This document shows, one piece after another, positions 7,459 to 22,528 of a DNA stretch of 23,363 bases. Source of the DNA: a virus; the IMG/VR virus record IMGVR_UViG_3300001533_000667, positions 1 to 23,363 of that record; one strand, written 5' to 3'. Position 1 is the first letter of the stretch. Each line of letters starts with the position of its first letter. The position numbers were made by a program, and so were the translations under genes. The notes under the pieces were generated by a model. It saw only the letters and a program-made list of their open reading frames with translations, was not told the DNA's origin and searched no databases.

Positions 7459-9468
7459 TTAAAAAATATTAGTTATTAATCTTTGTTCAGTCCACAATTC
7501 CTTGTCAGCGGTATTGAGAACTTGGTATACTTCCTTTAATTCCTTAGAAACAGCCTTTTGTACTGCCTCCTTAAGCCCAATTATTCTTACCCCATTTTCT
7601 TCCGTAGCTATAGACTTTACTAAAAAATTTGTATTCCTAGGAAATATAACTTCAGACTCTCCCCCAAATACTATATCTTTACCCCCTTTAGGAGATTCTA
7701 TTTTAAACAAAATACTCATATTATCCCTGTCTACTCCCCTTGTATCAATAAAAGACTGTGCCCAATTTTTACTGTATGAAGTTGAAAAGTAAGCAGTGTC
7801 CTTAAAACTTCCCAGAGACTCCAAATTTTTTATAAATTTTTCCCCCTCTTGTGCGCTTAATCTTATACCCCTAAAGACAGGTAGTGGCTGTGATTCTAAT
7901 TTTAATAAAGTATTATCTATGTATTTAGTTAATAACTTTTGGTCGCTAGATAAAACTCCTGCCCTTAGTGCCTTATTAATTTCCCAACTATTTATATTTC
8001 CTACATATTGTTTGAGAGCTTTTATCTCATCTAAATTTACACCCAATTTACCATAACCCTGCAACTGGGATATTCTTAACTCTGTCTCATATGCCTGAGT
8101 AGACACCGACCCCCAAGTAGTAGTGCCTGAAACTGGCACATTGGGCTGAACATAAGTATTATAGAATTTTTTTCTTTCTTCTAAAGAGTATGGCAAAGGC
8201 GTAACCCTTCCTTTTAGTCCTAATTTTAATCTTAGTTGCACATACCCCTCATCCGAAAGTCTTAATTGAGCATATTCTAAGGCTATTTTTCTATCTGTCC
8301 CCTCTAGCCTTCTAATTTCATCATAATAATTTCCTATCACTTTATCCTGACCTACTAAACTCTCTCCTCCAGCCCAAACGGCTTCTGGGTTCTGACACTT
8401 TTCACTTTTACCCTCAATTTCATAATCAGGACCATTATTTTTTGCTTTATTAAATAACTCAGTAACCCTATCAAAAATACTTGTATGATGTTTAACAAAA
8501 TCACCACACTCTTTAAATTCATATCTAACAGTACACCTACATAAGGCATGGGCGGGCGGAGCCATTCCAGTAAAATCCGAACCTCTTACAGTATCCGTAG
8601 CCTCTATCTCAGCGTGAAAACTACTCTCAATCCCAATTGTTCCTCCATTCAAAGGTTCACATATTGGACACACCCTTTCGTCTTCGGCAGTTTCCCAAAT
8701 TTTATGAGTAGCTCCGTTCATCATAGCTGTTTGCTGGCGCATCCATTCTGACACAGCTACTGTTTCTGTCATTACAATCTTTCTAGCACGCTCTTCAGAA
8801 AATCTTAAACCCGCTCCCTGCATACGTTTTATCATTGCACTCTTTCTCTCCCCTTTTTTTATCCCGATAGCTAACTGGTTCACAAAGCGTTTCTTTGTAG
8901 TTTTATCTAGCCCTTTAATCAGTGTATTGGTTCGGGACGATATTTGGGACACTAAATCCTTTTTGGACAGTCTAAACTTAATAGGTTGAGGAATCTTAAT
9001 TGAATCAATAATACTCTGACCTCCTTTGTTTGCCATATTCTTAAGATACCCATTCATCTCAGGGCGAAATTTATTGTAGCTGGAAATTGACTTAGACCTT
9101 TGACCTACCTGAGTAGCCATAAAACCTAATAATGCCCCCATCTTTAAAGCGCTGGAAGTAACTGATATTTTATCTTCCTGTAAATTCTCCGTGGCCAACG
9201 CCCTTAACTCTTCTTCCGACCTAATATCATCTTCGTCCTGTTTCTTAAAACTCTTTTTCAGTTTTATCTTAACCCCCCGTCTATTAACAAAGTATTTTGG
9301 ATACTCAGCATACAAGGTCTTAATAACACCCGATATAATTAAATCATTCCATTGCTCTTCCAAAGATTTCTGTATCAGTTGCTCTATTCGTTTATACTGC
9401 GGAGTTTTTGCCAGACTTCGGAAGAAATCACTACCGCCTGTGATGGGCTTCTTCTCAAACTTATCCAT
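7459..9468 (-). CDS. MuF-type head protein fused to an ADP-ribosyltransferase domain
   Basis: I start at the ATG of MDKFEKKPITGG (669 residues), which overlaps the portal stop by 8 nt; a longer reading from 9552 would lie deep inside portal. The N-terminal helical part leads to a MuF (Mu gp30/SPP1 gp7-like) domain at residues ~228-315, with ARKIVMTETVAVSEW, DERVCPICEPLNGG and the conserved end PPAHALCRC. MuF proteins enter the capsid with the portal and may be injected. The C-terminal ~200 residues resemble ARTs of the R-S-E class: VFRGIR (Arg ~533), AYFSTSYS (STS ~562-564) and GGESEVIF (ExE at ~604/606). That suggests a NAD-dependent toxin or effector that modifies a host protein on infection. 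Fusions of MuF with toxin domains are known in phages. The motifs are visible directly; the activity and target are inferred. Confidence 0.85.
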   Translation of the reverse strand: MDKFEKKPITGGSDFFRSLAKTPQYKRIEQLIQKSLEEQWNDLIISGVIKTLYAEYPKYFVNRRGVKIKLKKSFKKQDEDDIRSEEELRALATENLQEDKISVTSSALKMGALLGFMATQVGQRSKSISSYNKFRPEMNGYLKNMANKGGQSIIDSIKIPQPIKFRLSKKDLVSQISSRTNTLIKGLDKTTKKRFVNQLAIGIKKGERKSAMIKRMQGAGLRFSEERARKIVMTETVAVSEWMRQQTAMMNGATHKIWETAEDERVCPICEPLNGGTIGIESSFHAEIEATDTVRGSDFTGMAPPAHALCRCTVRYEFKECGDFVKHHTSIFDRVTELFNKAKNNGPDYEIEGKSEKCQNPEAVWAGGESLVGQDKVIGNYYDEIRRLEGTDRKIALEYAQLRLSDEGYVQLRLKLGLKGRVTPLPYSLEERKKFYNTYVQPNVPVSGTTTWGSVSTQAYETELRISQLQGYGKLGVNLDEIKALKQYVGNINSWEINKALRAGVLSSDQKLLTKYIDNTLLKLESQPLPVFRGIRLSAQEGEKFIKNLESLGSFKDTAYFSTSYSKNWAQSFIDTRGVDRDNMSILFKIESPKGGKDIVFGGESEVIFPRNTNFLVKSIATEENGVRIIGLKEAVQKAVSKELKEVYQVLNTADKELWTEQRLITNIF

Positions 9469-11899
9469 ATATAGGAGGATAATATTTTTTAGCTTTCTTT
9501 TTAAATGACTTCTTAGCACTCTTATCCAAATTGTCAATTTGTTGAACATCACTCATGTCATCTCTATTGTCCTCTGGGTTAGGACTTGGCGCACTACTTC
9601 CTGCATCGTCTTCAAATTCATCTTCTTCCACAGGCTCAATTCCCTCTCTTTCTGATACATCCTCTGGTGAAATAACACCTTGCTCAATATAAATTTTATC
9701 TATCTCAGCCTGTTTTCTTCTATCCTCTAAATTAGTAGCCTCTTCAAACTTAAATTCATAATCACCATATCCCTGTGGAATCATTATCTCCCTATTGAAA
9801 TACTCTTCTACCAAATTCTTAGTAGACTGGACGCCTCTCGAGGTAGTAAGACTCTCCTGTACCTGAGCCGTATTACCTTGAATCGTAATATCCCCATCTC
9901 TTCTCGTTACGAATAGGTGATTGGGCACTTCAAAACAATAAACCTTTCCTTTATAGAGCTTTCTAGTAATATGGTCTTTCTGCACTCCATACCCATCTCC
10001 TTGTGCCTTGCATATAAGAACTCTGTATGCCCTAGATTTATTTTCATGTGCTCCATAGTGCACTCTTAGTTTCGCCCTATAACCTAACTTATAAGAAAGC
10101 TCCTGAACATTTGAGCATAATTCTTCACTAGTAGAATAATAGGTACAAGAAGTCCTATTCTCTCTTGAATCAAAAGTACCATCCCCATCCATAAGTGCTT
10201 TCCATAATATGCTTAATTGTCTGACAGATAGCCCCATGAACTGCCTTGGTATTTTTTTCTCCTTACAATACCCACCACAATTCTCTAAAAGCCACATACA
10301 AAGCTGCTTTCCATATACATTAAATCTTATGCAACCATTCTTATCTATGCAAGAATCATAACTAAAACCCAGTCTATTTAGAACCCCTTCCATTCTTCTT
10401 GCCACTTCCCCATCATTCTGACTTAGGGTTAAGTGATACCTCTTATGTTCTAAAATATCCTTTACGGCTAACCCTCCCTCGGATATAAAGTATCCCAAAA
10501 ATTCCAACCAATCATCCATCAATAGTACAGTTTCACTATTGCCAGAGCCTTTCCATGACTCCTTGGATACAGGTGGGAGTACAAAGTGACCCATCTCCAC
10601 TCCATCAAACCCCTTTATAGAATCTACGAAAGAAAATCTAGCCCAAGGGATTTTTTCAGCGTCTACTTTACAATACTCTGAACCCCTAAACTCCTTTGAC
10701 CACATCTTATGCTCATCTGTTACTGCTATGTTTACATTTGTATTATGAAAGTAATTTAACTCCTCATTCACATCATAAACATACTTATTCATTGGTAAAT
10801 GGTACTCTAGTTTCTGATTTTGTGGGTTATATGTTGCAATTTTTTCTCCCTCTGAAACTTCATACCACTTCTTCCAACCATTTTCTGTTAAGGTTTCTGT
10901 CTCTTCATCATAACAAGCCCTATTTACATCTTGAGTGATATTAGCGTCCATACCAGACAATCCATATGCCGCTAATTTCAGTCTAGACAGCCAATCCAAA
11001 TATTCAACATACTGCATATCCTTGTGACTTCCATTTTGAAATGGGATATATTTCTTAGGGTTATCTGAACCCCATACAAATTTCATTCTTTGATTTCCAC
11101 CAATAACCGTAGCATTCCATAGTGCCACAAATTGCTGAGCCTCTTCATTGGACATACCCCCCAAGTCTAACATTCCAGGGGGAACATTATCCGCTGAAAA
11201 GGTTTTTGCATTATAAACCTGTGCATTCAAACTCGCTTGCACAGTCATTAATATACTTTCAATAGGTGACATACCATATCCATAGGCATCTAATTCATTC
11301 TGAGGATTCGACATCATGTAAATAATTTCGTCCTGCTTGAATTCGGCAACTACCTCATTATTTACTACTTGTACATATGCCTTGTCGGGGTCATACTCTC
11401 CCAATTTATTAAATCGAGGTCGAATAGTAGCTCCATCAACTGAATTTAATTCCATCAATTCACCTTTAGCATTATGCACCTTTTCAATTACACCAGCGTC
11501 CAGCACTAGCAAATCTTCCAATATCCTATCTAACAATACCCTCAAACTCTCAGAATTTGGGTTTAGCATTATAAATAGCGCATTTATGGATTGCAACTTT
11601 GCCTCATCAGGTTCAACCCCTGGCTTAGGTACTATCCGCCACTTGGCTTGTGATACCTCTTTCTTTATCACATTTACACATATACGAATTAGAGAATCAA
11701 CTTTGGCAATCTGCCTTAGCTGTGCAAAAGAAACTTTAGTAGGTTTCGGTGTTCCCTTTATGGGGTCATACCGCATTGCATTCATATTCGCCTGAATAGG
11801 TGCAATAGCCAAAGCCTTTTTACCCTCCTTGGAAAATGCATCTCTAGCAAATCCCATAAATGAATCTCCTAACTTCGAGAAGAATGAAGGTTTGTTCAT
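9461..11899 (-). CDS. Portal protein precursor interrupted by an intein
   Basis: The 812-residue precursor is portal extein (1-328), intein (329-676), portal extein (677-812); splicing would give a 464-residue portal. Portal features include FAQLRQIAKVDSLIRICVNV near the N-terminus, DLLVLDAGVIEK, the EIIYMMSNPQ and YGYGMSPIESIL segments, and LKLAAYGLSGMDANITQDVN just before the intein. The extein junction restores NRA|TAQVQESLTT, the conserved helix of HK97/SPP1-type portals. The C-terminal tail is acidic, then Lys-rich, and overlaps the MuF start. Portal forms the dodecameric ring at one capsid vertex through which DNA is packaged and ejected. Gene order terminase, portal, MuF is standard. 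The intein must splice to give a working portal. Confidence 0.9.
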   Translation of the reverse strand: MNKPSFFSKLGDSFMGFARDAFSKEGKKALAIAPIQANMNAMRYDPIKGTPKPTKVSFAQLRQIAKVDSLIRICVNVIKKEVSQAKWRIVPKPGVEPDEAKLQSINALFIMLNPNSESLRVLLDRILEDLLVLDAGVIEKVHNAKGELMELNSVDGATIRPRFNKLGEYDPDKAYVQVVNNEVVAEFKQDEIIYMMSNPQNELDAYGYGMSPIESILMTVQASLNAQVYNAKTFSADNVPPGMLDLGGMSNEEAQQFVALWNATVIGGNQRMKFVWGSDNPKKYIPFQNGSHKDMQYVEYLDWLSRLKLAAYGLSGMDANITQDVNRACYDEETETLTENGWKKWYEVSEGEKIATYNPQNQKLEYHLPMNKYVYDVNEELNYFHNTNVNIAVTDEHKMWSKEFRGSEYCKVDAEKIPWARFSFVDSIKGFDGVEMGHFVLPPVSKESWKGSGNSETVLLMDDWLEFLGYFISEGGLAVKDILEHKRYHLTLSQNDGEVARRMEGVLNRLGFSYDSCIDKNGCIRFNVYGKQLCMWLLENCGGYCKEKKIPRQFMGLSVRQLSILWKALMDGDGTFDSRENRTSCTYYSTSEELCSNVQELSYKLGYRAKLRVHYGAHENKSRAYRVLICKAQGDGYGVQKDHITRKLYKGKVYCFEVPNHLFVTRRDGDITIQGNTAQVQESLTTSRGVQSTKNLVEEYFNREIMIPQGYGDYEFKFEEATNLEDRRKQAEIDKIYIEQGVISPEDVSEREGIEPVEEDEFEDDAGSSAPSPNPEDNRDDMSDVQQIDNLDKSAKKSFKKKAKKYYPPIYG
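9872..10915 (-). mobile_element. Intein in portal with LAGLIDADG endonuclease
   Basis: The intein spans C329 to N676 of the precursor (348 residues). Its first residue is Cys (CYDEETETLTENGWKKWYEV, block A with the usual EVSEGEKIATYN that follows). A splicing His is visible in NIAVTDEHKMW. Two LAGLIDADG-type helices are present: WLEFLGYFISEGG and LWKALMDGDGTF. The end KVYCFEVPNHLFVTRRDG...QGN, with downstream Thr as the +1 nucleophile, matches blocks F and G. The penultimate residue is Gly rather than His, a known variation that may slow splicing. The endonuclease probably drives homing into intein-free portal genes. Confidence 0.9.
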
Positions 11900-12197: not shown

Positions 12198-15100
12198 TTA
12201 TTGAATTACCCCTGCGTCAAGCATTCCTTGTAGCTGTTTATAATATTTCTCTTTGGCACTCAACTCCCTCTGTTGTGCAACAGTCCTCTTATCAGCAGTA
12301 TTAACTTCGGAAGAATTTGTCTGCATCATTCCCATTTCTCCCCCACTATTCTGTATTGCATTATACACCGCACCACATACAGCATCCGCCACATCTTTTG
12401 AATTATGAACAAACACTCCTGAAGCCAAGGCAAAATTTTCCGTTTCTGGAACAGTTAAATCATATACATCCTCATTAGTAGTAATTTTTTTAACAGCTAA
12501 AATTCTGTGGTTTCTTTTTGATGACGTTCGCTCAGGAAGCATTTTTGCTCTTTTAGCTCTTTGATAATGCATATCACATAATCCTCTCGCATTAGAAATT
12601 CTAACACAACCCTCCATAGAACAATTTTCCACCCTTTTACCATAGTTGCCTGCCGACCATTTAGCCCTCATTCTATCGGAATGCACTTTTTGAGCCACCT
12701 TATCCTTCCTATATACTTCATGGCCCTTTCTTAATAAGCCCTCCTTAGCACTCCATAATTTATTTCCATGATGCTTATAGTGTGCGGTTCTACTCATAAC
12801 CTCCAAATTTCTTGGGTCATTGTTCCACTTAACTTCATCTTTATGGTGGACGACTTTGCCTTTTGAACATCCACCAACTGCCAACTGATGTGTCAATAAT
12901 CTCTTCTTTCTAATAGGACACCACACTCTTTCATAATCCGCATAACCTCCTTTATAAGACCTTGTTCTGTATAAAGGCATTATAGAAATATCGGGAGTTA
13001 AATTTTGAGCTTTAACCCATTCTCCATCCAAAGTCATAAACAAGTGTTCTGGTGTACACCTTACAACCTGAAAATTATCTAAAGTAACCTCCACTAATTC
13101 TTTGGCAGTTTTGGTTACTCTAGCATTCCTAGCCTTTTTTATGGATACCCCGTTTTTATCCATAGAGTAAACATAAAACGCATCATTACGTTCCGAAAGT
13201 TCTTTAAAAGTAGGATTAGTTCCATCAGCCAAAGCCACTCGTGTTTCTCCTGTAAAACATCCACCTGGCGGGTGGTCAACTTTATTTGACTTAGTAATTT
13301 CTAATCTCTGCAATTCATCAAACAAAAAATCCATTTTATGGCACTTAACCCTCTTAGAATAAATTAATTCTTTCAAAGTATTATACGGCTCAATAGTTCT
13401 GTCTACTGATAAATACTCGGCTCTTATTCCTTTGCTTCTAAGTATCTGAAGGGTATCCGCTGAATTATGAACAAACACCCCAGCAGAAGTAGCAAAATTA
13501 TGATTTTCCTCCACTTCAATATCCCAAACTGCATCTTCTATTCCTAAGTCTTCTATTTTAATTATCTTGTGGTTTACTGTTTCACAAAATTCTTTCCAAT
13601 ATCTGAAACCTTGCTTATTTATTCTATTCCTAACTTTTCTAGCGGTAGTATTTAATTTTTTACATACTTCTGAAAAAGATAAACCTGTATTTTGTTTGAG
13701 TAAATCAATAGTCAAACTAGAATCGTACATAGGGTGTTTCTCTCCATAATGAGCTGTCTTTCTTTTAGCCATTTTCTTTCTATGCTGTTCATTTGACCAT
13801 AATTTCTTTTGCATTTCTGACATATTTTTTCTGGCATCTTTGCTAGTTTCAGTCCCCTTTCTTACAGGGTTATTTCTGTTTCTCTCAGAAATAATTTTAC
13901 TGATTTTTTCATGTTCTTCTTGTCTTCTCCATCTTTTTTTATTACCTTTAGCTAAAGCTTTCTTCATTCTATCGGGATTTTCTTTCCAAATTCTTCTAGA
14001 GGTTTCAGCCAATGCTTTGTTGCGTCTTTCTTGTGCTTCAGTATTTCTAGATAATTTTTCTCTGGCTATCTCTAAACCTTTTATTGCTAAATCTCGATGT
14101 AATTTTCCGTGTTCTTTATAACTTAAACTTTCTAAATTAATAGGTTCATTATTACGCTTGTCTCTATTCTTGTGGTGAATTACTTTACCTCGTTCTATTT
14201 CTTTTTTCTGGCGCATAATAGCCCTATGAGTATACTCCCAACTTCCTCTAGAATGGAGCACCATTTCATAATCTTTTAAATCTTTCATACCCTTTTTTCT
14301 ATACAAAGGCATTAAACTTTCTCCTACTTTCAGATCTTTAACTTGTTTAAAAGAGCCATCTCTTAACATAAATGGGTGATTATCAGAACAATCAATATGC
14401 TTACCATTATCTAAATGTACTCTAAATATTTTCTTTTTTCCCGATGACCAAACATTTCTAACCTTGCCAAAACCAACATCACCCTTTTTATTTATAGAAT
14501 ACACATACTCTCCTGGTTTAATATCTTCTATTTTTTTGTCTTCACCTTTTAACAAAGATAACTCTGTTTCTTTTAATAATGACATATTTTTATCTTTAGT
14601 ATTATTACCATTATTATATATTAAACTTTGAAATTGACCGAAGGTTGTTACAGGAATCTTTGTTCCAGAACGTAGACATTGAAATTGGTCGAGTGTTACT
14701 AATTTAATTGAATACCCCATAGCCTTCAGGGCGTATATCTTATTTCTTACCTCTTCAAAATTTATTTCTCCCGTTACACCCGCTGATATTCTTTCTGCCA
14801 AATCAACCACAATTTTCTTTTGTCGTTCTCCTGTTATCTCGTTCTCTTCCCAGCCATCGAAATGAGTCATAGCAAATCCAGCGTGGTCTCCCTTTCCTTT
14901 TTTATTCAGCGCCAAATCTATATGTATATAGTAACTAGTCCTCAGAGCGGGTTCTGCGAATTTATACTTACCATCTGACTGCAAGGGAGTATCAATACTC
15001 TCATCAAACATCGTCTTAATTACATGAGGGTGTGCCATGAACGCCTCAATAGTCATACTTGGTAATGCCGCAAAGTCCCTCTTGGCTTTATCTGGGTCTT

Positions 15101-16109
15101 GCAAGAAACTCTTTTTATACTCGCCAGGAACTTCCCAATATGTTTTCGTAGATATAAACTCATCTGTTACAAAACAAATATCTGCTTTGTTACTTAAATC
15201 TGGCTTATCATCTACTAAACCATCTCTGCTATGAAAATAAAACTTGTTAGCCATATCCGCTTGTTTCAGAGGTCTTGTTTTCCATGTCGGTATCTGAGAA
15301 TGATAAATCAAATCAGGGAACTTCTTAGCGTCCTCAAGTTTATTCATTATAAAATCGCCCTCATATCTAGGAGATGAAATCATAACCACCAATCCATCAT
15401 TACCAAATCTGGATACAATACGTCTTTGCAGGGCATTATAAATTTCTTCTGCTATCTGCTTATTCTCATTGTCCATATAAAAAGCCGCCTCATCTAATAC
15501 AGCGTAAAAAATATTATACCCTAATGGTGTAGTTGACTTACTGTTACCCGACACTAGTAATATATTTTCTCTGGAAAATCTTATATTAGTAGTAAGCACC
15601 TTGGGGTTGAACCTTTTGAACCAAGGGCTTTTCTCCATTAAGTTCCTAATACCCGTAAAACAGTTCTCCAACGCTTGTGTAGCAGTAGTACCCATATTCA
15701 TTATGGTAATGGGCTTATCTTTAGCTAAATAATAAGTAGCGTGAGGATTTCTAAGACACAAAAGATAATGAGTAGCGTAGCAAGCTAGTATTTCTGACAC
15801 AGTTGTTTTTCCTGCACCTATCCCCGCTACAATAACCGCCTCTGAATATCCCTTCTCTATAATATCCCTACACATCTCCCTTACTTTCGGATAAACATAA
15901 TCACCTATTCCCAAATATCTATTATCATCTAAAAAGGTATCAATGCTAACTCTGGGATACCTCCATTTTTTCCTGTCTGTTAAGTATTCTTTGAAGTACT
16001 GTATGTCAGTCTTGTTTCGCATAATACCTGAATGCTCCTTTAACATTTGGAGAACATTCTCCGAAAAGTTTTGCATGAAATTTGGTATTTTAGTAACAAC
16101 TTTGGACAT
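12198..16109 (-). CDS. Large terminase subunit precursor with two inteins
   Basis: The 1303-residue precursor holds extein 1 (1-477), intein 1 (478-882), extein 2 (883-950), intein 2 (951-1236) and extein 3 (1237-1303); the spliced product would be 612 residues, normal for TerL. The ATPase shows Walker A GIGAGKTT (96-103) and Walker B VLDEA (D206, E207), with the coupling-like segment VVMISSPRYEGDF. The nuclease shows IHIDLALNKKGKGDH (D398), VTLDQFQ (D474) and SKDVADAV (D1239/D1242). Intein 1 lies right after the DQFQ motif and intein 2 right before SKDVADA, so both disrupt the nuclease until removed. TerL packages DNA through portal and cuts the concatemer. It starts 2 nt after the TerS stop. 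Confidence 0.93.
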   Translation of the reverse strand: MSKVVTKIPNFMQNFSENVLQMLKEHSGIMRNKTDIQYFKEYLTDRKKWRYPRVSIDTFLDDNRYLGIGDYVYPKVREMCRDIIEKGYSEAVIVAGIGAGKTTVSEILACYATHYLLCLRNPHATYYLAKDKPITIMNMGTTATQALENCFTGIRNLMEKSPWFKRFNPKVLTTNIRFSRENILLVSGNSKSTTPLGYNIFYAVLDEAAFYMDNENKQIAEEIYNALQRRIVSRFGNDGLVVMISSPRYEGDFIMNKLEDAKKFPDLIYHSQIPTWKTRPLKQADMANKFYFHSRDGLVDDKPDLSNKADICFVTDEFISTKTYWEVPGEYKKSFLQDPDKAKRDFAALPSMTIEAFMAHPHVIKTMFDESIDTPLQSDGKYKFAEPALRTSYYIHIDLALNKKGKGDHAGFAMTHFDGWEENEITGERQKKIVVDLAERISAGVTGEINFEEVRNKIYALKAMGYSIKLVTLDQFQCLRSGTKIPVTTFGQFQSLIYNNGNNTKDKNMSLLKETELSLLKGEDKKIEDIKPGEYVYSINKKGDVGFGKVRNVWSSGKKKIFRVHLDNGKHIDCSDNHPFMLRDGSFKQVKDLKVGESLMPLYRKKGMKDLKDYEMVLHSRGSWEYTHRAIMRQKKEIERGKVIHHKNRDKRNNEPINLESLSYKEHGKLHRDLAIKGLEIAREKLSRNTEAQERRNKALAETSRRIWKENPDRMKKALAKGNKKRWRRQEEHEKISKIISERNRNNPVRKGTETSKDARKNMSEMQKKLWSNEQHRKKMAKRKTAHYGEKHPMYDSSLTIDLLKQNTGLSFSEVCKKLNTTARKVRNRINKQGFRYWKEFCETVNHKIIKIEDLGIEDAVWDIEVEENHNFATSAGVFVHNSADTLQILRSKGIRAEYLSVDRTIEPYNTLKELIYSKRVKCHKMDFLFDELQRLEITKSNKVDHPPGGCFTGETRVALADGTNPTFKELSERNDAFYVYSMDKNGVSIKKARNARVTKTAKELVEVTLDNFQVVRCTPEHLFMTLDGEWVKAQNLTPDISIMPLYRTRSYKGGYADYERVWCPIRKKRLLTHQLAVGGCSKGKVVHHKDEVKWNNDPRNLEVMSRTAHYKHHGNKLWSAKEGLLRKGHEVYRKDKVAQKVHSDRMRAKWSAGNYGKRVENCSMEGCVRISNARGLCDMHYQRAKRAKMLPERTSSKRNHRILAVKKITTNEDVYDLTVPETENFALASGVFVHNSKDVADAVCGAVYNAIQNSGGEMGMMQTNSSEVNTADKRTVAQQRELSAKEKYYKQLQGMLDAGVIQ
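12402..13259 (-). mobile_element. Second TerL intein, HNH-containing
   Basis: Residues 951-1236 of the precursor (286 residues). It begins CFTGETRVALADGTNPTFKE (block A); block B is VRCTPEHLFMT with its His. It ends EDVYDLTVPETENFALASGV then FVHN|S (blocks F and G, penultimate His, Asn and +1 Ser all present). The central region has an HNH signature KVVHHKDEVKWNNDPRNLEV. A Cys-rich stretch follows (CSMEGCVRISNARGLCDMHY), which looks like a small zinc finger for DNA recognition. All residues needed for splicing are present. The insertion site HPPGG|SKDVADA is a highly conserved terminase motif, the usual choice for a homing element. Confidence 0.93.
13464..14678 (-). mobile_element. First TerL intein, HNH with NUMOD-like DNA-binding region
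   Basis: Residues 478-882 of the precursor (405 residues). It begins CLRSGTKIPVTTFGQ, unusual because a second block-A-like stretch (KETELSLLKGEDKKIEDI) comes about 35 residues later; the intervening stretch appears to be an insertion. Block B is IDCSDNHPFMLRDG. It ends DAVWDIEVEENHNFATSAGV then FVHN|S. An HNH motif (KVIHHKNRDKRNNEPINLES) follows the first splicing half. After it comes a long basic helical stretch (~670-790) with repeated RR(W/I)-type segments, then a NUMOD3-like HYGEKHPMYDSS and a helix-turn-helix-like FSEVCKKLNTTARKVRNRIN. Such modules bind the homing site. Splicing residues are intact, although the N-terminal layout is odd. Confidence 0.9.
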
Positions 16110-16690: not shown

Positions 16691-16795
16691 TTAAAAAGTA
16701 TTGCTACAAACCACAACCTCTTTAAACAGCCCTTTTTGTTCCAAAGAGCATGACTTGTAATCTAGGACTAAAATTGTATCCGTTTTTATATGCAT
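16691..16795 (-). CDS. Possible 34-aa ORF upstream of TerS
   Basis: A short frame from ATG 16795 encodes 34 residues beginning MHIKTDTILVLDYKSCSLEQ and ends 12 nt before the TerS start. Another frame over the same bases (VMLFGTKRAV at its end) is also open for about 28 codons, so coding is uncertain. It adjoins the decayed IS605 element and could be the remains of a gene the element interrupted. Confidence 0.25.
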   Translation of the reverse strand: MHIKTDTILVLDYKSCSLEQKGLFKEVVVCSNTF

Positions 16796-16945
16796 ACTCC
16801 CATGTGAACTACACCGGAGCCTAAAGGCATCGGTGCTTCCTGCTTCAACCTACCACTACTTCTTAGGGATTGCTCCGTTCGTCCATAGTTGGGTAGTCCA
16901 CAGGCTTGAATTTCCGCCATTCCAGCGGTGATATTTTCTTGTATT
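16786..16945 (-). pseudogene. tnpB: tnpB 3' remnant (IS605-type)
   Basis: On the minus strand the frame from about 16945 to the TAA at 16786 reads ENITAGMAEIQACGLPNYGR then SSGRLKQEAPMPLGSGVVH, the style of the extreme C-terminus of IS605-family TnpB proteins. The RuvC and zinc-finger parts are absent. In intact elements the guide (omega) RNA scaffold overlaps exactly this 3' part, so the remnant may keep RNA function even without protein. It lies between a strong promoter and the right-end hairpin. Assignment is by phrase recognition. Confidence 0.6.
16812..16835 (-). repeat. Right-end hairpin of the decayed IS605 element
   Basis: CACCG pairs with CGGTG, then GCC with GGC around a TAAA loop, with a G-T and an A-A between. 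It is a subterminal palindrome of the kind bound by the Y1 transposase. It lies at the 3' end of the tnpB remnant. Confidence 0.7.
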
Positions 16946-16957
16946 TCTCATAATTCT

Positions 16958-16986
16958 ATTATATACTTTAGTGAACCTATGGTCAA
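16958..16986 (-). promoter_or_regulatory. Sigma-70-like promoter TTGACC-N17-TATAAT
   Basis: On the minus strand, TTGACC (16981-16986) and TATAAT (16958-16963) are 17 bp apart, nearly a perfect consensus. It points through the tnpB remnant toward TerS, whose start is about 280 nt downstream. An ATG (16949-16951) sits 6 nt after the -10 box and opens a 31-codon frame, so a leaderless transcript is possible. Confidence 0.65.
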
Positions 16987-17075
16987 ATACTTTTTGGTCT
17001 GATGACTACTTTGCTTGTAGTACTGGAGATGCTAGCACAGAAACAATTATGGAGTATATCAGAACACAAGGATGA
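16971..17075 (+). pseudogene. tnpA: tnpA 3' remnant (IS200/IS605 Y1 transposase)
   Basis: The plus-strand frame ending at TGA 17073-17075 reads LWSNTFWSDDYFACSTGDAS then TETIMEYIRTQG. This matches the C-terminal signature of Y1-type TnpA (LW....WS..YF..s.G....e.i..YI..Q). The catalytic HUH motif and the tyrosine helix upstream are gone, so this is a fragment. It is the only plus-strand coding trace in the window, divergent from the tnpB remnant as in IS605. Confidence 0.75.
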
Positions 17076-17089
17076 TTAGGTGCTTACAT

Positions 17090-17112
17090 CCCCTAGCCTA
17101 AAGGCATAGGGG
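17090..17112. repeat. Left-end hairpin of the decayed IS605 element
   Basis: CCCCTA pairs with TAGGGG and GCC with GGC around a TAAA loop with one bulged A. It sits 14 nt beyond the tnpA stop and 11 nt before the end of the Acb2-like gene, so the element boundary nearly touches that gene. It may also act as its terminator. Confidence 0.7.
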
Positions 17113-17123
17113 TTTTATATAAA

Positions 17124-17345
17124 TTATTTTCTCACCTCTGTTTCTACAGGATTAGTTACGCCTTTTACTGCCCACATAACTAACTCTTCTAATTTCGTTT
17201 TAGCTACTGCAATATGTCTTGGGTTAGCGTCAAACGCTGTACAAATATCTTCATATAATATCTGTGCCTTTTCTTTGATAGAGGCTACCTTTTCTTTCTG
17301 AGATAAAGTAAGCTCTTTGTACTCTGGTATAAATGGATTTTCCAT
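17124..17345 (-). CDS. acb2: Acb2-family cyclic-oligonucleotide sponge (anti-CBASS)
   Basis: A 73-residue protein with an N-terminal Tyr/Pro segment (MENPFIPEYKELTLSQKEKV), a first helix (ASIKEKAQILYEDICTA) and a second helix with HIAVAKTKLEELVMWAVKGV. The phrase A.TKLEEa.MWAvKavT is the hallmark I associate with Acb2/Tad1-hairpin proteins. Acb2 oligomers bind cyclic di- and trinucleotides made by CBASS and related systems and so block host defence. Y9 and a Lys in the first helix (K24 or K26) may correspond to ligand contacts described for Acb2 of Pseudomonas phages; that needs alignment. The length fits the family. It is encoded between QueD and the packaging genes, with the QueD stop 11 nt upstream of its ATG, and is the second likely counter-defence or nucleotide-related gene in this block. 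Confidence 0.75.
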   Translation of the reverse strand: MENPFIPEYKELTLSQKEKVASIKEKAQILYEDICTAFDANPRHIAVAKTKLEELVMWAVKGVTNPVETEVRK

Positions 17346-17356
17346 AATTAATTAAT

Positions 17357-17803
17357 TTATAAATTTTTATACTCTGCAAAAGCGGTAGGTGTTTCCCATA
17401 CAGTTACAGTTCTTAAGTTAATATTTTTAGCCCTAAACTCTTTGACTAACTGGTTATACATCCACTCTGCCATATTTTCTGCCGTAGGAACAAAATCAAC
17501 TGCAATAACTCTCCAACCTTTAGACTGAAAGAATTGGATAGTATCGCTATCATATTGATTGGATAGCATACACCCGTGGCCAAGAGTTTCATCGAAAAAA
17601 GTTTTAGCTATCTTTTTTACTGTATGGAAGTCAACTACCATTCCCTCATCGGCATCTCCAACACTATTATCATCTTCTAGCATATTTGGACCAACAAATG
17701 TCAGCCTAACTTTATATCTATGCCCGTGTAAATTCTTACACAACCCTGAATGATTAGGCAAACGATGCGCCATATCAAACTCGAAATCTTTAGAAATTTT
17801 CAT
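17357..17803 (-). CDS. queD: QueD-like 6-carboxytetrahydropterin synthase
   Basis: A 148-residue member of the 6-pyruvoyl-tetrahydropterin synthase/QueD family, which turns dihydroneopterin triphosphate into carboxytetrahydropterin, the second step toward 7-deazaguanines (queuosine or modified DNA). The zinc ligands are visible: H13 (FDMAHRL), H26 and H28 (KNLHGHRYKV). The catalytic Cys is C22 in SGLCKNLHGH. GMVVDFHTVKK, PTAEN (E109) and VTVWETPTAFAEY (E137) are conserved. The usual Asp before the active-site His (LDH) is Gly here (TLGHGCML, H76), which could reduce activity. The first gene upstream is a membrane protein whose end overlaps this start by 14 nt. Phage QueD genes usually serve DNA protection; QueC and FolE are not seen in the window. 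Confidence 0.88.
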   Translation of the reverse strand: MKISKDFEFDMAHRLPNHSGLCKNLHGHRYKVRLTFVGPNMLEDDNSVGDADEGMVVDFHTVKKIAKTFFDETLGHGCMLSNQYDSDTIQFFQSKGWRVIAVDFVPTAENMAEWMYNQLVKEFRAKNINLRTVTVWETPTAFAEYKNL

Positions 17804-19555: not shown

Positions 19556-19750
19556 TCTGACATACTCCAAGGGCTAAAGCACCTTGGGTTCTTCAGGTCA
19601 AAAGCCCCACTATTGTGGTAGCCTCGCTGATACCGTTGTCCACGGTGGTTAGTGCTAAAATATTCCTGCTTGCGTTCTCATCCCTGTCTAAAACCAATCC
19701 ACACGAAAGGCAGATATGGGTTCTGACCGACAAGGACTTTTTCACGATGT
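19540..19750 (-). ncRNA. Candidate omega (reRNA) guide RNA of tnpB
   Basis: In TnpB systems the guide RNA overlaps the 3' part of tnpB and ends with a guide taken from the flank. Here that region would be the last ~150 nt of tnpB, the right-end hairpin and roughly 20 nt of the ParB-like leader and start codon. The limits are an estimate from family knowledge; only the hairpin is seen directly. Confidence 0.4.
19567..19587 (-). repeat. Right-end hairpin of the tnpB element
   Basis: CCAAGG and CCTTGG pair around GCTAAAGCA. It lies just downstream of the tnpB stop. By analogy with known IS605-type elements the omega RNA scaffold ends about here and the guide would be copied from the bases that follow, which include the start of the ParB-like gene. 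Confidence 0.65.
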
Positions 19751-20690
19751 CTCCGCATTGGCTACACTTCTGGGAAGTGAAACATGGGTTCACTTTCACC
19801 AATGCCTTTCCAAGCATTTTCAGCTTGTAGTCCAGCATATTGGCAAAGATTCCCCAGCTTGCGTCCGAGATTGATTTTGATAGGTGTCTATTTTTCACCA
19901 TCCCTTTCACATTCAAATCCTCCATCGCCACAAGATCATATCCTTTGGCGTACCTGCTTGAAGTCTTATGCAGAAAATCCCTGCGTCTGTTTGCTATCCT
20001 CTCGTGGGTTCGTTTGATGGTGTGGTATGCCTTTGCCTTCCGTTTACTCCCCCTTTTAGCCTTGGAAGCCTTGCGTTGCTGGATAGCGAGAAGAGCTTCG
20101 GATTCCCTAAAACTCTTTGGGGGCACAATCTTATTCCCCTCGGAATCGGCTACAAAGTATTTCAGTCCAAGGTCGATTCCTATCTTCTTTTCGCATTTTA
20201 CACTTAGCTTCTCGGCTACCTCATCAACAACCTGCAAATACCATCCGCTTGCCCGTTTCACAATCCTCGCTTCGCTTGGATTCGCTAAGTTCTGCAAGCC
20301 TCTGGTCTTGATTCCATCCAGCCCGTATTTTTTCCAAGTCACGAGGTACTTCCCGTCAATCCTGTAATCGGTTCCGTATTGTCTGAGATTTAGACTGCGA
20401 TAACGCCCGAACTTCTTGAACCTCGGGAATCCGCCAAGTTTGAAAAAATGCTGATAGGCGTTGTTCAGGCGGTAGATGACCATCTGCCTTTGGCTTGCTG
20501 GCAAGTCGCCTTTTCCCTTTCCAATTTTCTGTAGGTCATAGCGAGATATATTTTTCTTATCAGTCTCCCATGCGCTCTTTTTGGTCTCAAGGCAGAAATT
20601 GTAGAACAGCCTCGATTCCTCAAGGAGTTTTTCCAGAGTGACAATCTGCTTTGCCGATGGGTATAATTTTGCTTCTCTCGTAAGGTTCAT
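19593..20690 (-). CDS. tnpB: TnpB RNA-guided nuclease (IS605 OrfB family)
   Basis: A complete 365-residue TnpB, within the usual length. The N-terminal domain (AKLYPSAKQIVTLEKLLEES, LPASQRQMVIYRLNNAYQHF, GGFPRFKKFGRYRSL) is typical. RuvC motifs are intact: GIDLGLKYFVA (D173), VAMEDLNVKGM (E257) and DRDENASRNIL (D337). The zinc finger has C309, C312, C327 and C330 (QKCSQCG and ICLSCGL). TnpB uses an RNA from its own 3' end to cut target DNA beside a short motif and helps retain the element. All key residues are present, so it is probably active. ATG at 20690 lies 6 nt after a -10 box, so its message may be leaderless. Confidence 0.95.
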   Translation of the reverse strand: MNLTREAKLYPSAKQIVTLEKLLEESRLFYNFCLETKKSAWETDKKNISRYDLQKIGKGKGDLPASQRQMVIYRLNNAYQHFFKLGGFPRFKKFGRYRSLNLRQYGTDYRIDGKYLVTWKKYGLDGIKTRGLQNLANPSEARIVKRASGWYLQVVDEVAEKLSVKCEKKIGIDLGLKYFVADSEGNKIVPPKSFRESEALLAIQQRKASKAKRGSKRKAKAYHTIKRTHERIANRRRDFLHKTSSRYAKGYDLVAMEDLNVKGMVKNRHLSKSISDASWGIFANMLDYKLKMLGKALVKVNPCFTSQKCSQCGDIVKKSLSVRTHICLSCGLVLDRDENASRNILALTTVDNGISEATTIVGLLT

Positions 20691-20696
20691 GGTTAG

Positions 20697-20725
20697 ATTC
20701 TAGCACCTGCTAAACTTCAAGTCAA
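20697..20725 (-). promoter_or_regulatory. tnpB promoter TTGACT-N17-TAGAAT
   Basis: On the minus strand TTGACT (20720-20725) and TAGAAT (20697-20702) are 17 bp apart. Only 6 nt separate the -10 box from the tnpB ATG, so transcription would start at or next to the start codon. Confidence 0.65.
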
Positions 20726-20758
20726 TACCTCTTTCATTTACTGTAGGTGTTCGCTCTC

Positions 20759-20783
20759 ATCCCACGGCTAAAGTGTGTGGGAT
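20759..20783 (-). repeat. Left-end hairpin of the tnpB element
   Basis: ATCCCAC (20759-20765) and GTGGGAT (20777-20783) pair perfectly around GGCTAAAGTGT, a typical subterminal palindrome of IS605 ends. It lies 23 nt after the stop of the phosphoribosyltransferase gene and could also serve as its terminator. Confidence 0.75.
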
Positions 20784-20805
20784 TTCCCGCTCACTCTATT
20801 AATTA

Positions 20806-21231
20806 TTATTCCCACGGAAAACAAACCCACCCGTCTTTTTCTTTCACGCAGTAATCTACTAGGTCGGGTGAGTGTGGTTTTTTATATAAAACAGCAATTT
20901 TAGAATTAGGATAATACTTTTTTGCTAACTCTAAAGTCTTGCCAGTGTCAATTAAATCATCGACTATCAACCAGTTATACCTTTTGGAAACCTCTGTACT
21001 GGCGGGTATAACTTTTAAATCTTTCTGTTCATTATCTTTATTATAAGAAGTTATACAAAGCGTCCTTATCAACTTTACTGAAAGATATCGAGCCAAAAAA
21101 TAGGCTGGTACTAGCCCTCCCCTAGTAACTGCCAGTATTTTAGTACTAGCCTTATAAGGAATTGAATCGGCTAAAGCCTTAATATCTTTTTCAAATTCTT
21201 CCCATGATATTTTAATTCTCTGGTTTGACAT
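20806..21231 (-). CDS. Gpt-like purine phosphoribosyltransferase
   Basis: A 141-residue type I phosphoribosyltransferase. The PRPP-binding motif is WLIVDDLIDTGKT (residues 87-99), the early loop is LAVTRGGLVPAYFLARYL (R37-G38-G39), and the C-terminus DYCVKEKDGWVCFPWE resembles the W..PW(D/E) end of bacterial xanthine-guanine phosphoribosyltransferase (Gpt). The enzyme attaches a purine base to ribose 5-phosphate from PRPP. Its start overlaps the end of the second QueE-like gene by 20 nt, so the two are probably co-translated. Next to QueE-like and QueD genes, a 7-deazaguanine base is an attractive substrate, making a nucleotide that could feed DNA synthesis; this is inference, and ordinary guanine/xanthine salvage is the default. 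Confidence 0.85.
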   Translation of the reverse strand: MSNQRIKISWEEFEKDIKALADSIPYKASTKILAVTRGGLVPAYFLARYLSVKLIRTLCITSYNKDNEQKDLKVIPASTEVSKRYNWLIVDDLIDTGKTLELAKKYYPNSKIAVLYKKPHSPDLVDYCVKEKDGWVCFPWE

Positions 21232-21799
21232 GAATATTAATAAGTTTAGTTTTAAATTTAAACTTTTCTGAATCTTTCAAATATAAAGCAACCAAATCCA
21301 CAATATCCTTAGCCTCCGCCTTATCGCTTATTCTGAAATACACCGTAGGTTTTGTTATTATTCTATCTCTTACATACGCTTTAGCATTTTCATATTCTTT
21401 TACTGACTTAACATTAATAAATATTTCATCCAAATCTTGCAACAAAGGCAAGTTTCTAGGGTCAACATCATTCTTCTTATCGGAAGGTGGGTTGAGTCTT
21501 AGGCAAAAAATTATATTACGCTGTCTACGAACAGTTTCAATAACATCTGAAGCATCTGTAATATAATAAATTATCTTTCCCTTTGAAATCAAACCCTCTA
21601 TCACAGTCTGAATATCGGTATTATCAATTAGCTTGCCCTTTACTAAAACATTTCTAAGCGGACATTCTAAAACCTTTTGTAAAATATCATTAACTTCCAT
21701 ATCTTCACCTTTCTCGCTGACGGCAACCATTGTACAGGGAGTCCCAACCAAAGAACCTTCGGTAAGAACTATCTGTTTTATAGGTAGTATTTTTAACAT
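21212..21799 (-). CDS. Degenerate QueE-like protein without radical-SAM motifs
   Basis: A 195-residue protein that reads as a stripped-down QueE. The N-terminal LTEGSLVGTPCTMVAVS matches the QueE opening (QGEG...GtP..FVRlaGC), but the CxxxCxxC loop is replaced by a few residues (EKGED) that lead straight into MEVNDILQKVLE. GGEP is replaced by VLVKGKL. The C-terminal half keeps QueE-like phrases: LDEIFINVKSVKEYENAKAY (compare DEIKFVv.s.eDyewAk) and ALYLKDSEKFKFKTKLINIH. It lies 9 nt after the 239-aa QueE-like gene and overlaps the phosphoribosyltransferase gene. It cannot bind a 4Fe-4S cluster, so it is probably a binding, regulatory or structural partner. The homology is by eye and should be tested by profile search. 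Confidence 0.6.
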   Translation of the reverse strand: MLKILPIKQIVLTEGSLVGTPCTMVAVSEKGEDMEVNDILQKVLECPLRNVLVKGKLIDNTDIQTVIEGLISKGKIIYYITDASDVIETVRRQRNIIFCLRLNPPSDKKNDVDPRNLPLLQDLDEIFINVKSVKEYENAKAYVRDRIITKPTVYFRISDKAEAKDIVDLVALYLKDSEKFKFKTKLINIHVKPEN

Positions 21800-21808
21800 A
21801 ATAAAAAA

Positions 21809-22528
21809 TTATACGCCCCGTTTCTTCGGGCCGTGAAGTAAAATATTAAATCTGTTTGACATTCTATAACCTTTTGCCAAACATTGTTGCTCTATATAAG
21901 GTAAGGTTCTCATCATTCCCACTGTATCCGTAGGAAAAGGTTTCAGCCAAATCCTAGAGGGTACAATTTTAAAATCGCTTTGCAGTATCTTAACCTCCTT
22001 CATATCGCTTTCATGTCTAATTTCAAATAAAAATTTTGCTTTCTTATTCTCTACTAAAGCATTCAAGCTATCCTTTTTAATTCTGTTATGGTGGGTTTCC
22101 ATAACTGAACCATGAGCCGAATTCCCTAATTTGACCTGAACATTATATTGACCAACATACTTATCTAACTCTAGCAACGGAACAGTTCTCCCATTCGTTT
22201 CCATTTCCACAAAAGGTAACCTTCCAAATTTCCCCTCAAATTCTTTGAAAAAGCTAATTAAACCCTCTTGCTGTAACAATGGCTCTCCCCCAGTAATAAT
22301 TAAATGAAATTTATTACCTAAGGACAACTTAGTTATCTGTGCTACTACTTCGGAAACTTCCATTACTTTTTTATTCTTCTCTGGGTTATCCGAGGCAAAA
22401 ATATGAATTGAATTTCTGTCGTGATAGTCTGTACCAAAAAGCCTCACCAATACCGCGGAATATCCTGAATAACTGCCTTCTGCCTGCACTGCTGGGTACA
22501 CTTCACTTAGCTCTAGCTTGCTCTTCAT
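21809..22528 (-). CDS. QueE-family protein lacking all cluster cysteines
   Basis: A 239-residue QueE homologue of nearly normal length. It opens LSEVYPAVQAEGSYSGYSAV then LVRLFG and has the SAM-binding ITGGEPLLQQEG (G80-G81-E82-P83), VEMETNGRTVPL, VQVKLGNSAHGS and the typical QueE ending RFNILLHGPKKRGV. The radical-SAM motif CxxxCxxC, which in QueE reads like GCDYSCSWCD, is GTDYHDRNS here (residues 32-40): Thr, Asp and Ser replace the three Cys. The only Cys in the protein is near the C-terminus. It therefore cannot make 7-carboxy-7-deazaguanine by the known chemistry. Everything else looks conserved, so it is probably a selected pseudoenzyme, not a decayed gene. A promoter candidate lies upstream. 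Confidence 0.8.
   Translation of the reverse strand: MKSKLELSEVYPAVQAEGSYSGYSAVLVRLFGTDYHDRNSIHIFASDNPEKNKKVMEVSEVVAQITKLSLGNKFHLIITGGEPLLQQEGLISFFKEFEGKFGRLPFVEMETNGRTVPLLELDKYVGQYNVQVKLGNSAHGSVMETHHNRIKKDSLNALVENKKAKFLFEIRHESDMKEVKILQSDFKIVPSRIWLKPFPTDTVGMMRTLPYIEQQCLAKGYRMSNRFNILLHGPKKRGV

Follow-up and report, generated by a model that had tools for sequence, protein, structure and literature searches.

QueE, the 7-carboxy-7-deazaguanine (CDG) synthase, is a homodimer and has been studied as a radical enzyme; its product is a precursor of modified bases in DNA and RNA. The roles of its residues (cluster, substrate, Mg and SAM binding) have been described in Escherichia coli, where the single mutants C31A and C35A stay active in vivo and C38A alone abolishes queuosine (PMC11142719). 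In phages, the 7-deazaguanine DNA modification systems consist of FolE, QueD, QueE, QueC and DpdA (PMC6884629). CDG serves in the modification of both DNA and tRNA and also in CBASS immunity, and a phage protein that binds it could thus act as a shuttle, as a regulator or in counter-defence. In type IV CBASS, Cap9 conjugates CDG to a defence protein, and this step is essential for defence (PMC13279940, PMC11996544).

Here we analysed the 23,363 nucleotides (positions 1 to 23,363) of the IMG/VR record IMGVR_UViG_3300001533_000667, hereafter the window, which comes from an uncultured virus and may be a fragment. A tandem pair of QueE-like genes without the cluster had been predicted in this DNA. 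Both open reading frames are indeed present, both derive from QueE and neither encodes the cluster cysteines. They lie on the minus strand, 9 nucleotides apart, and the start of a phosphoribosyltransferase gene overlaps the end of the second one by 20 nucleotides:

21809-22528, minus strand: protein A (239 aa), assigned as a QueE homologue; cluster cysteines lost, residues of the substrate pocket kept
21212-21799, minus strand: protein B (195 aa), assigned as a remote QueE homologue, cysteine loop deleted and GGEP lost
20806-21231, minus strand: phosphoribosyltransferase, closest model xanthine phosphoribosyltransferase; the order A, B, phosphoribosyltransferase is the same in the sister contig

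The sister contig is a single IMG/VR contig of 29.6 kb (L001/L002), in which A and B are again adjacent and each share 82% identity with the copy in the window. No further virus was found with A or B, so that the expectation that the two genes would occur together elsewhere holds in the one case available.

Protein A, a QueE homologue without cluster cysteines

Judged from its sequence, protein A is unambiguously a homologue of QueE. It matches phrog_2076, annotated as 'QueE-like radical SAM domain' (E 1.8e-23), and Bsubt_queE (E 1.7e-10). Moreover, a profile-profile comparison with 17 viral QueE covers all 239 residues (probability 100%, E 2.4e-44). The region of the cluster reads GTDYHDRNSIH, versus GC-x3-C-x2-CDT in QueE. 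Mapped on E. coli QueE, the cluster cysteines C31, C35 and C38 are replaced by T, D and S in both viruses, the Mg threonine T40 by His and the SAM serine S136 by Gln. The loss of one cysteine would prove little, because the C31A and C35A single mutants stay active; protein A lacks all three. The substrate-binding residues Q13, E15 and R27 of the E. coli enzyme are kept as Q15, E17 and R29, together with TGGEP, ETNG and the Lys of SPK. These positions (Q15, E17, R29, TGGEP, ETNG and K133) are invariant or nearly so across other QueE. The former cluster loop, GTDYHD(R/K)NSIH, differs between the window and the sister contig by a single R/K exchange, and a conserved insertion containing HH follows K133. 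The conserved Asp and His of this loop could mean catalysis rather than mere binding.

Protein B, a remote relative of QueE

Protein B matches the QueE family TIGR04349 (E 7.5e-8), and the copy of the sister contig does so independently (E 1.3e-6). We then built a gams-type QueE HMM from 25 bacterial-genome sequences. With this HMM, the B proteins of the window and the sister contig reach 32.7 and 25.3 bits, and the best of 1,300 shuffled sequences 6.9 bits, a margin that shows that the match is not due to chance. Protein B has no significant Pfam match, and neither the viral QueE profile nor protein A matches it. In the alignments, it keeps E14, G15, G19, G55 and T81; among the QueE motifs, the Glu-Gly of QGEG and the following Gly are retained, with scattered core residues. 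The cysteine loop, GGEP, the Glu of ETNG and the SPK lysine are missing and R27 is replaced by Ala. The deletion of the loop and the loss of GGEP, which the original prediction had read from the letters, are thus seen in the alignments to QueE. The prediction had also described B as QueE-like at both ends; the likeness itself stands, but it runs along residues 20-186 and concerns the short gams-type profile, not the viral one.

An AlphaFold model of B from its two sequences alone reached a pLDDT of 39 and was discarded. With QueE sequences in the alignment, the pLDDT was 73 and the four best PDB matches were all QueE, from Bacillus subtilis and E. coli (E about 1e-5); this fold match is only partly independent, because QueE sequences sat in the alignment. 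A lack of structural similarity to QueE had been named as the finding that would speak against the assignment of B; the predicted fold is nearest to QueE, with this same reservation about the alignment. From the alignments and profile matches, protein B is a remote QueE homologue from which nearly all active-site residues are gone.

E. coli QueE also has a moonlighting role, and A or B might block host cell division in a comparable way. The R27A mutant of E. coli QueE makes no queuosine and still blocks division, which is in favour of this idea (PMC11142719). However, the block requires C31 and C35 as well as the region E45-W67 of the enterobacterial enzyme, and B. subtilis and Pseudomonas aeruginosa QueE do not show the effect (PMC11142719). 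With C31 and C35 missing from A and the whole loop missing from B, a division block appears extremely unlikely.

Conservation of the pair beside a 7-deazaguanine cassette

Comparison of the window with the sister contig gives a dN/dS of 0.11 for A and 0.09 for B. Both genes are under strong purifying selection, since these values are near that of the major capsid protein (0.09). In the sister contig, the genes follow each other in the order A, B, phosphoribosyltransferase, FolE (E 3.8e-68), a PTPS-like protein belonging to phrog_17812, a glycosyltransferase (weak match) and a DpdA-family protein (E 1.8e-34 against phrog_887). A and B are thus the first genes of this operon, after which come ParB, QueD and a canonical QueE of 267 aa with the motif CNLNCNFC. 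FolE, QueD, QueE and DpdA therefore all accompany A and B in this contig; no QueC was found in the window or in the sister record. Because the sister also has a normal QueE and a QueD, the pair there supplements a 7-deazaguanine DNA-modification cassette of the phage and is not its CDG synthase.

Since the cluster is lost in both proteins and selection nevertheless keeps both intact, A and B probably do something new inside the phage base-modification pathway. The loss took two forms: A is a QueE minus its cluster, with the residues of the ligand pocket kept, and B is a QueE minus its whole active site, of which the scaffold only is left. Our preferred reading, a tentative one that falls slightly short of an even chance, is that A and B form a conserved QueE-derived pseudoenzyme pair within a phage 7-deazaguanine module, A being the ligand binder and B its dimer partner. 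Protein A would bind CPH4 or CDG with no radical conversion, and B would be its structural partner, the second half of a QueE-like dimer. With the adjacent phosphoribosyltransferase, the pair would hold, hand over or regulate a deazaguanine intermediate. As had been proposed, the pair would work without QueE-type radical SAM chemistry, because neither protein has the cluster cysteines. A dimer of two divergent halves is not assured, because B lies closer to the profile of gams-type QueE than it does to A.

The two proteins might also act separately, A as a ligand binder of the pathway and B as an unrelated scaffold or regulator that shares the operon by chance. In line with this, the QueE profiles matched by A and by B are not the same, and the two proteins do not match each other. 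However, the genes are strictly adjacent and under similar constraint in both viruses, and we consider separate action unlikely.

Gene loss in the window

Over most of its length, the window is collinear with the sister contig; two exceptions are informative. At the site of the canonical QueE of the sister, the window has a QueE remnant, a TnpA fragment and an Acb2-type hairpin gene. At the site that extends from FolE to DpdA in the sister, it has a TnpB gene:

17357-17803, minus strand: QueD (6-carboxytetrahydropterin synthase) homologue, common to the window and the sister contig
16722-16802, minus strand: C-terminal remnant of a canonical QueE, 26 codons and a stop; 23 of 26 residues identical to the QueE of the sister
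16932-17072, plus strand: IS200/IS605 TnpA (Y1_Tnp) fragment, adjoining the QueE remnant
17124-17345: Acb2/Tad1 hairpin-domain gene, 73 aa (Pfam E 2.6e-11)
19593-20690, minus strand: TnpB gene, at the site of FolE, the PTPS-like protein, the glycosyltransferase and DpdA in the sister

The window thus retains A, B, the phosphoribosyltransferase and QueD. FolE, an intact QueE and DpdA are absent from their places, although the record may be a fragment and these genes could lie elsewhere. The QueE remnant differs from the sister QueE by 6 synonymous and 3 replacement changes, and the loss of the canonical gene is therefore probably recent; the TnpA fragment is a probable scar of it. After so recent a loss, the fact that A and B survive argues only weakly for a role outside DNA modification. 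With FolE, QueE and DpdA gone from these positions, A and B may have been left behind in the window as recent orphans.

Other differences were noted. Traces of IS200/IS605 elements are found at both sites of modification-gene loss (16722-17345 and 19570-20797). The Acb2/Tad1 family includes anti-CBASS sponges, and the sister contig carries no such gene. In addition, the genes for the portal protein and the large terminase in the window (9461-11899 and 12198-16109) contain long intein-like insertions, two of them in the terminase; the copies in the sister are uninterrupted.

The pair could also be considered as decaying, functionless baggage left by a duplicated QueE. The active-site losses of A and B and the absence of most of the cassette from the window would agree with such a decay. 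Purifying selection argues against it, with a dN/dS of about 0.1 for both genes and open reading frames that are intact in the two viruses, and we regard decay as very unlikely.

A counter-defence role was also weighed. Protein A would capture CDG, or B would join the host QueE as a dead subunit; either would lower host CDG and weaken type IV CBASS or other host uses of deazaguanines. Several observations are in line with this proposal: the defence needs CDG conjugation by Cap9 (PMC13279940, PMC11996544), an Acb2-type hairpin gene lies near the QueE remnant, A, B, the phosphoribosyltransferase and QueD persist in the window, in which the usual position of DpdA lacks that gene, and B resembles the bacterial gams-type QueE. 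On the other hand, FolE, QueD, QueE and DpdA are all present in the sister phage, which therefore needs CDG itself, and the loss of QueE from the window looks recent. PADLOC has no match for A or B, although it covers defence and not counter-defence proteins. Counter-defence is, on this evidence, quite improbable. If CDG capture were true, it would be a phage counter-measure against deazaguanine-based immunity.

Rarity of the pair in sequence collections

We searched for further copies of both genes. Among about 160 viral loci listed with QueE or phrog_17812, no cluster-free QueE besides A was seen, all the other complete QueE keeping their cluster cysteines, and no further B was found. B was likewise missing from 50,697 phage records and from 72,556 plasmids. 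None of 50 whole viral records contained more than one QueE-like gene, and none a convincing B; 292 bacterial genomes of one phylum gave only chance-level matches to B. Searches of viral contigs with A, B, the phosphoribosyltransferase and the small terminase recovered the sister contig alone, and genome contigs searched with A yielded two canonical QueE. The viruses found to carry the A-B pair are therefore two, the window and its sister. Rarer relatives of A or B may exist elsewhere.

Several candidates for a cluster-free QueE were rejected. The second QueE-like open reading frame of L014 encodes another radical SAM protein, with the motif CNAKCWFC. In L150, L167, L172 and L073, the cysteines are present and widely spaced. 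L177 is truncated at the border of its contig, L039 carries a frameshift and L030 is interrupted by an apparent intein; in this last viral QueE (L030:1-846), the intein stands directly before the last cluster cysteine (...LVHNCDTPYTWD). In a tree of 137 sequences, A, B and L012 fall together near the root; this grouping looks like long-branch attraction and was not taken as kinship.

A widespread viral cassette was also observed during this survey. It associates FolE, QueD and QueE with the PTPS-like protein of phrog_17812 and a glycosyltransferase-like protein (L002:7515-8874; also L010, L045, L060, L133, L150 and L172); most examples lack QueC and carry either DpdA or a phosphoribosyltransferase. 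Its product might be a glycosylated or otherwise unusual deazaguanine in DNA.

This cassette bears on the possibility that A is a new enzyme, a cluster-free QueE barrel carrying out non-radical chemistry on CDG or on a later base, with B as a subunit. A metal-dependent decarboxylation is one example, for which the Asp and His of GTDYHD(R/K)NSIH could bind the metal. The conservation of this loop between the two viruses bar one exchange, the conserved HH insertion after K133 and the kept substrate residues agree with an enzyme. Moreover, no QueC was found in the sister sequence, so that CDG must undergo another kind of processing there, ahead of DpdA or after it. However, the cassette with the PTPS-like protein and the glycosyltransferase is common in other viruses without A and B, and so the core pathway seems complete without them; in addition, the metal site is a guess from sequence alone. 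We regard a new enzyme as distinctly unlikely. Taken broadly, a new activity of the pair on 7-deazaguanines, whether non-radical catalysis or a CDG capture that disarms type IV CBASS deazaguanylation, is unlikely.

Comparison with known systems

A conserved pair that lost its cluster along two different routes would show that the QueE barrel has been turned by phages into a pseudoenzyme or recruited for a new chemistry of 7-deazaguanines. A and B are small and soluble and the candidate ligands are known compounds, so that these readings are directly testable.

The closest relative is QueE itself (the viral type phrog_2076; solved structures 5tgs/5th5, 6nhl and 4njg). Protein A is homologous to it over its full length, with the substrate-pocket residues, GGEP and ETNG kept, and the predicted fold of B is nearest to it. 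The differences are that the cluster cysteines are gone from both proteins, that the Mg and SAM residues of A are replaced and that almost the whole active site of B is lost. TIGR04347 ('pseudo-SAM/SPASM') is, by name alone, a radical-SAM-like family without radical chemistry; neither A nor B matches its model at E up to 1. DpdL, reportedly presented by Cui et al. in 2023 as a predicted CDG decarboxylase of phages, would likewise be an extra phage step on CDG. In the sister cassette, the widespread PTPS-like protein of phrog_17812 would be the more likely counterpart of DpdL.

As in the described phage 7-deazaguanine systems (PMC6884629), the sister contig has FolE, QueD, a canonical QueE and a DpdA-family protein. 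A and B with the adjacent phosphoribosyltransferase are extra in it, and QueC was not found. The window differs further, with FolE, QueE and DpdA missing from their places and only QueD and the QueE remnant left. Finally, the QueC-like Cap9 and QatC (PMC13279940, PMC13329287) are likewise pathway enzymes reused for a new role. Cap9 and QatC keep the catalytic motifs of QueC and act in bacterial defence, whereas A and B are QueE-derived, phage-borne and cluster-free. The novelty of the pair is that proteins of the QueE family lacking the defining cluster are found inside a known type of phage pathway.
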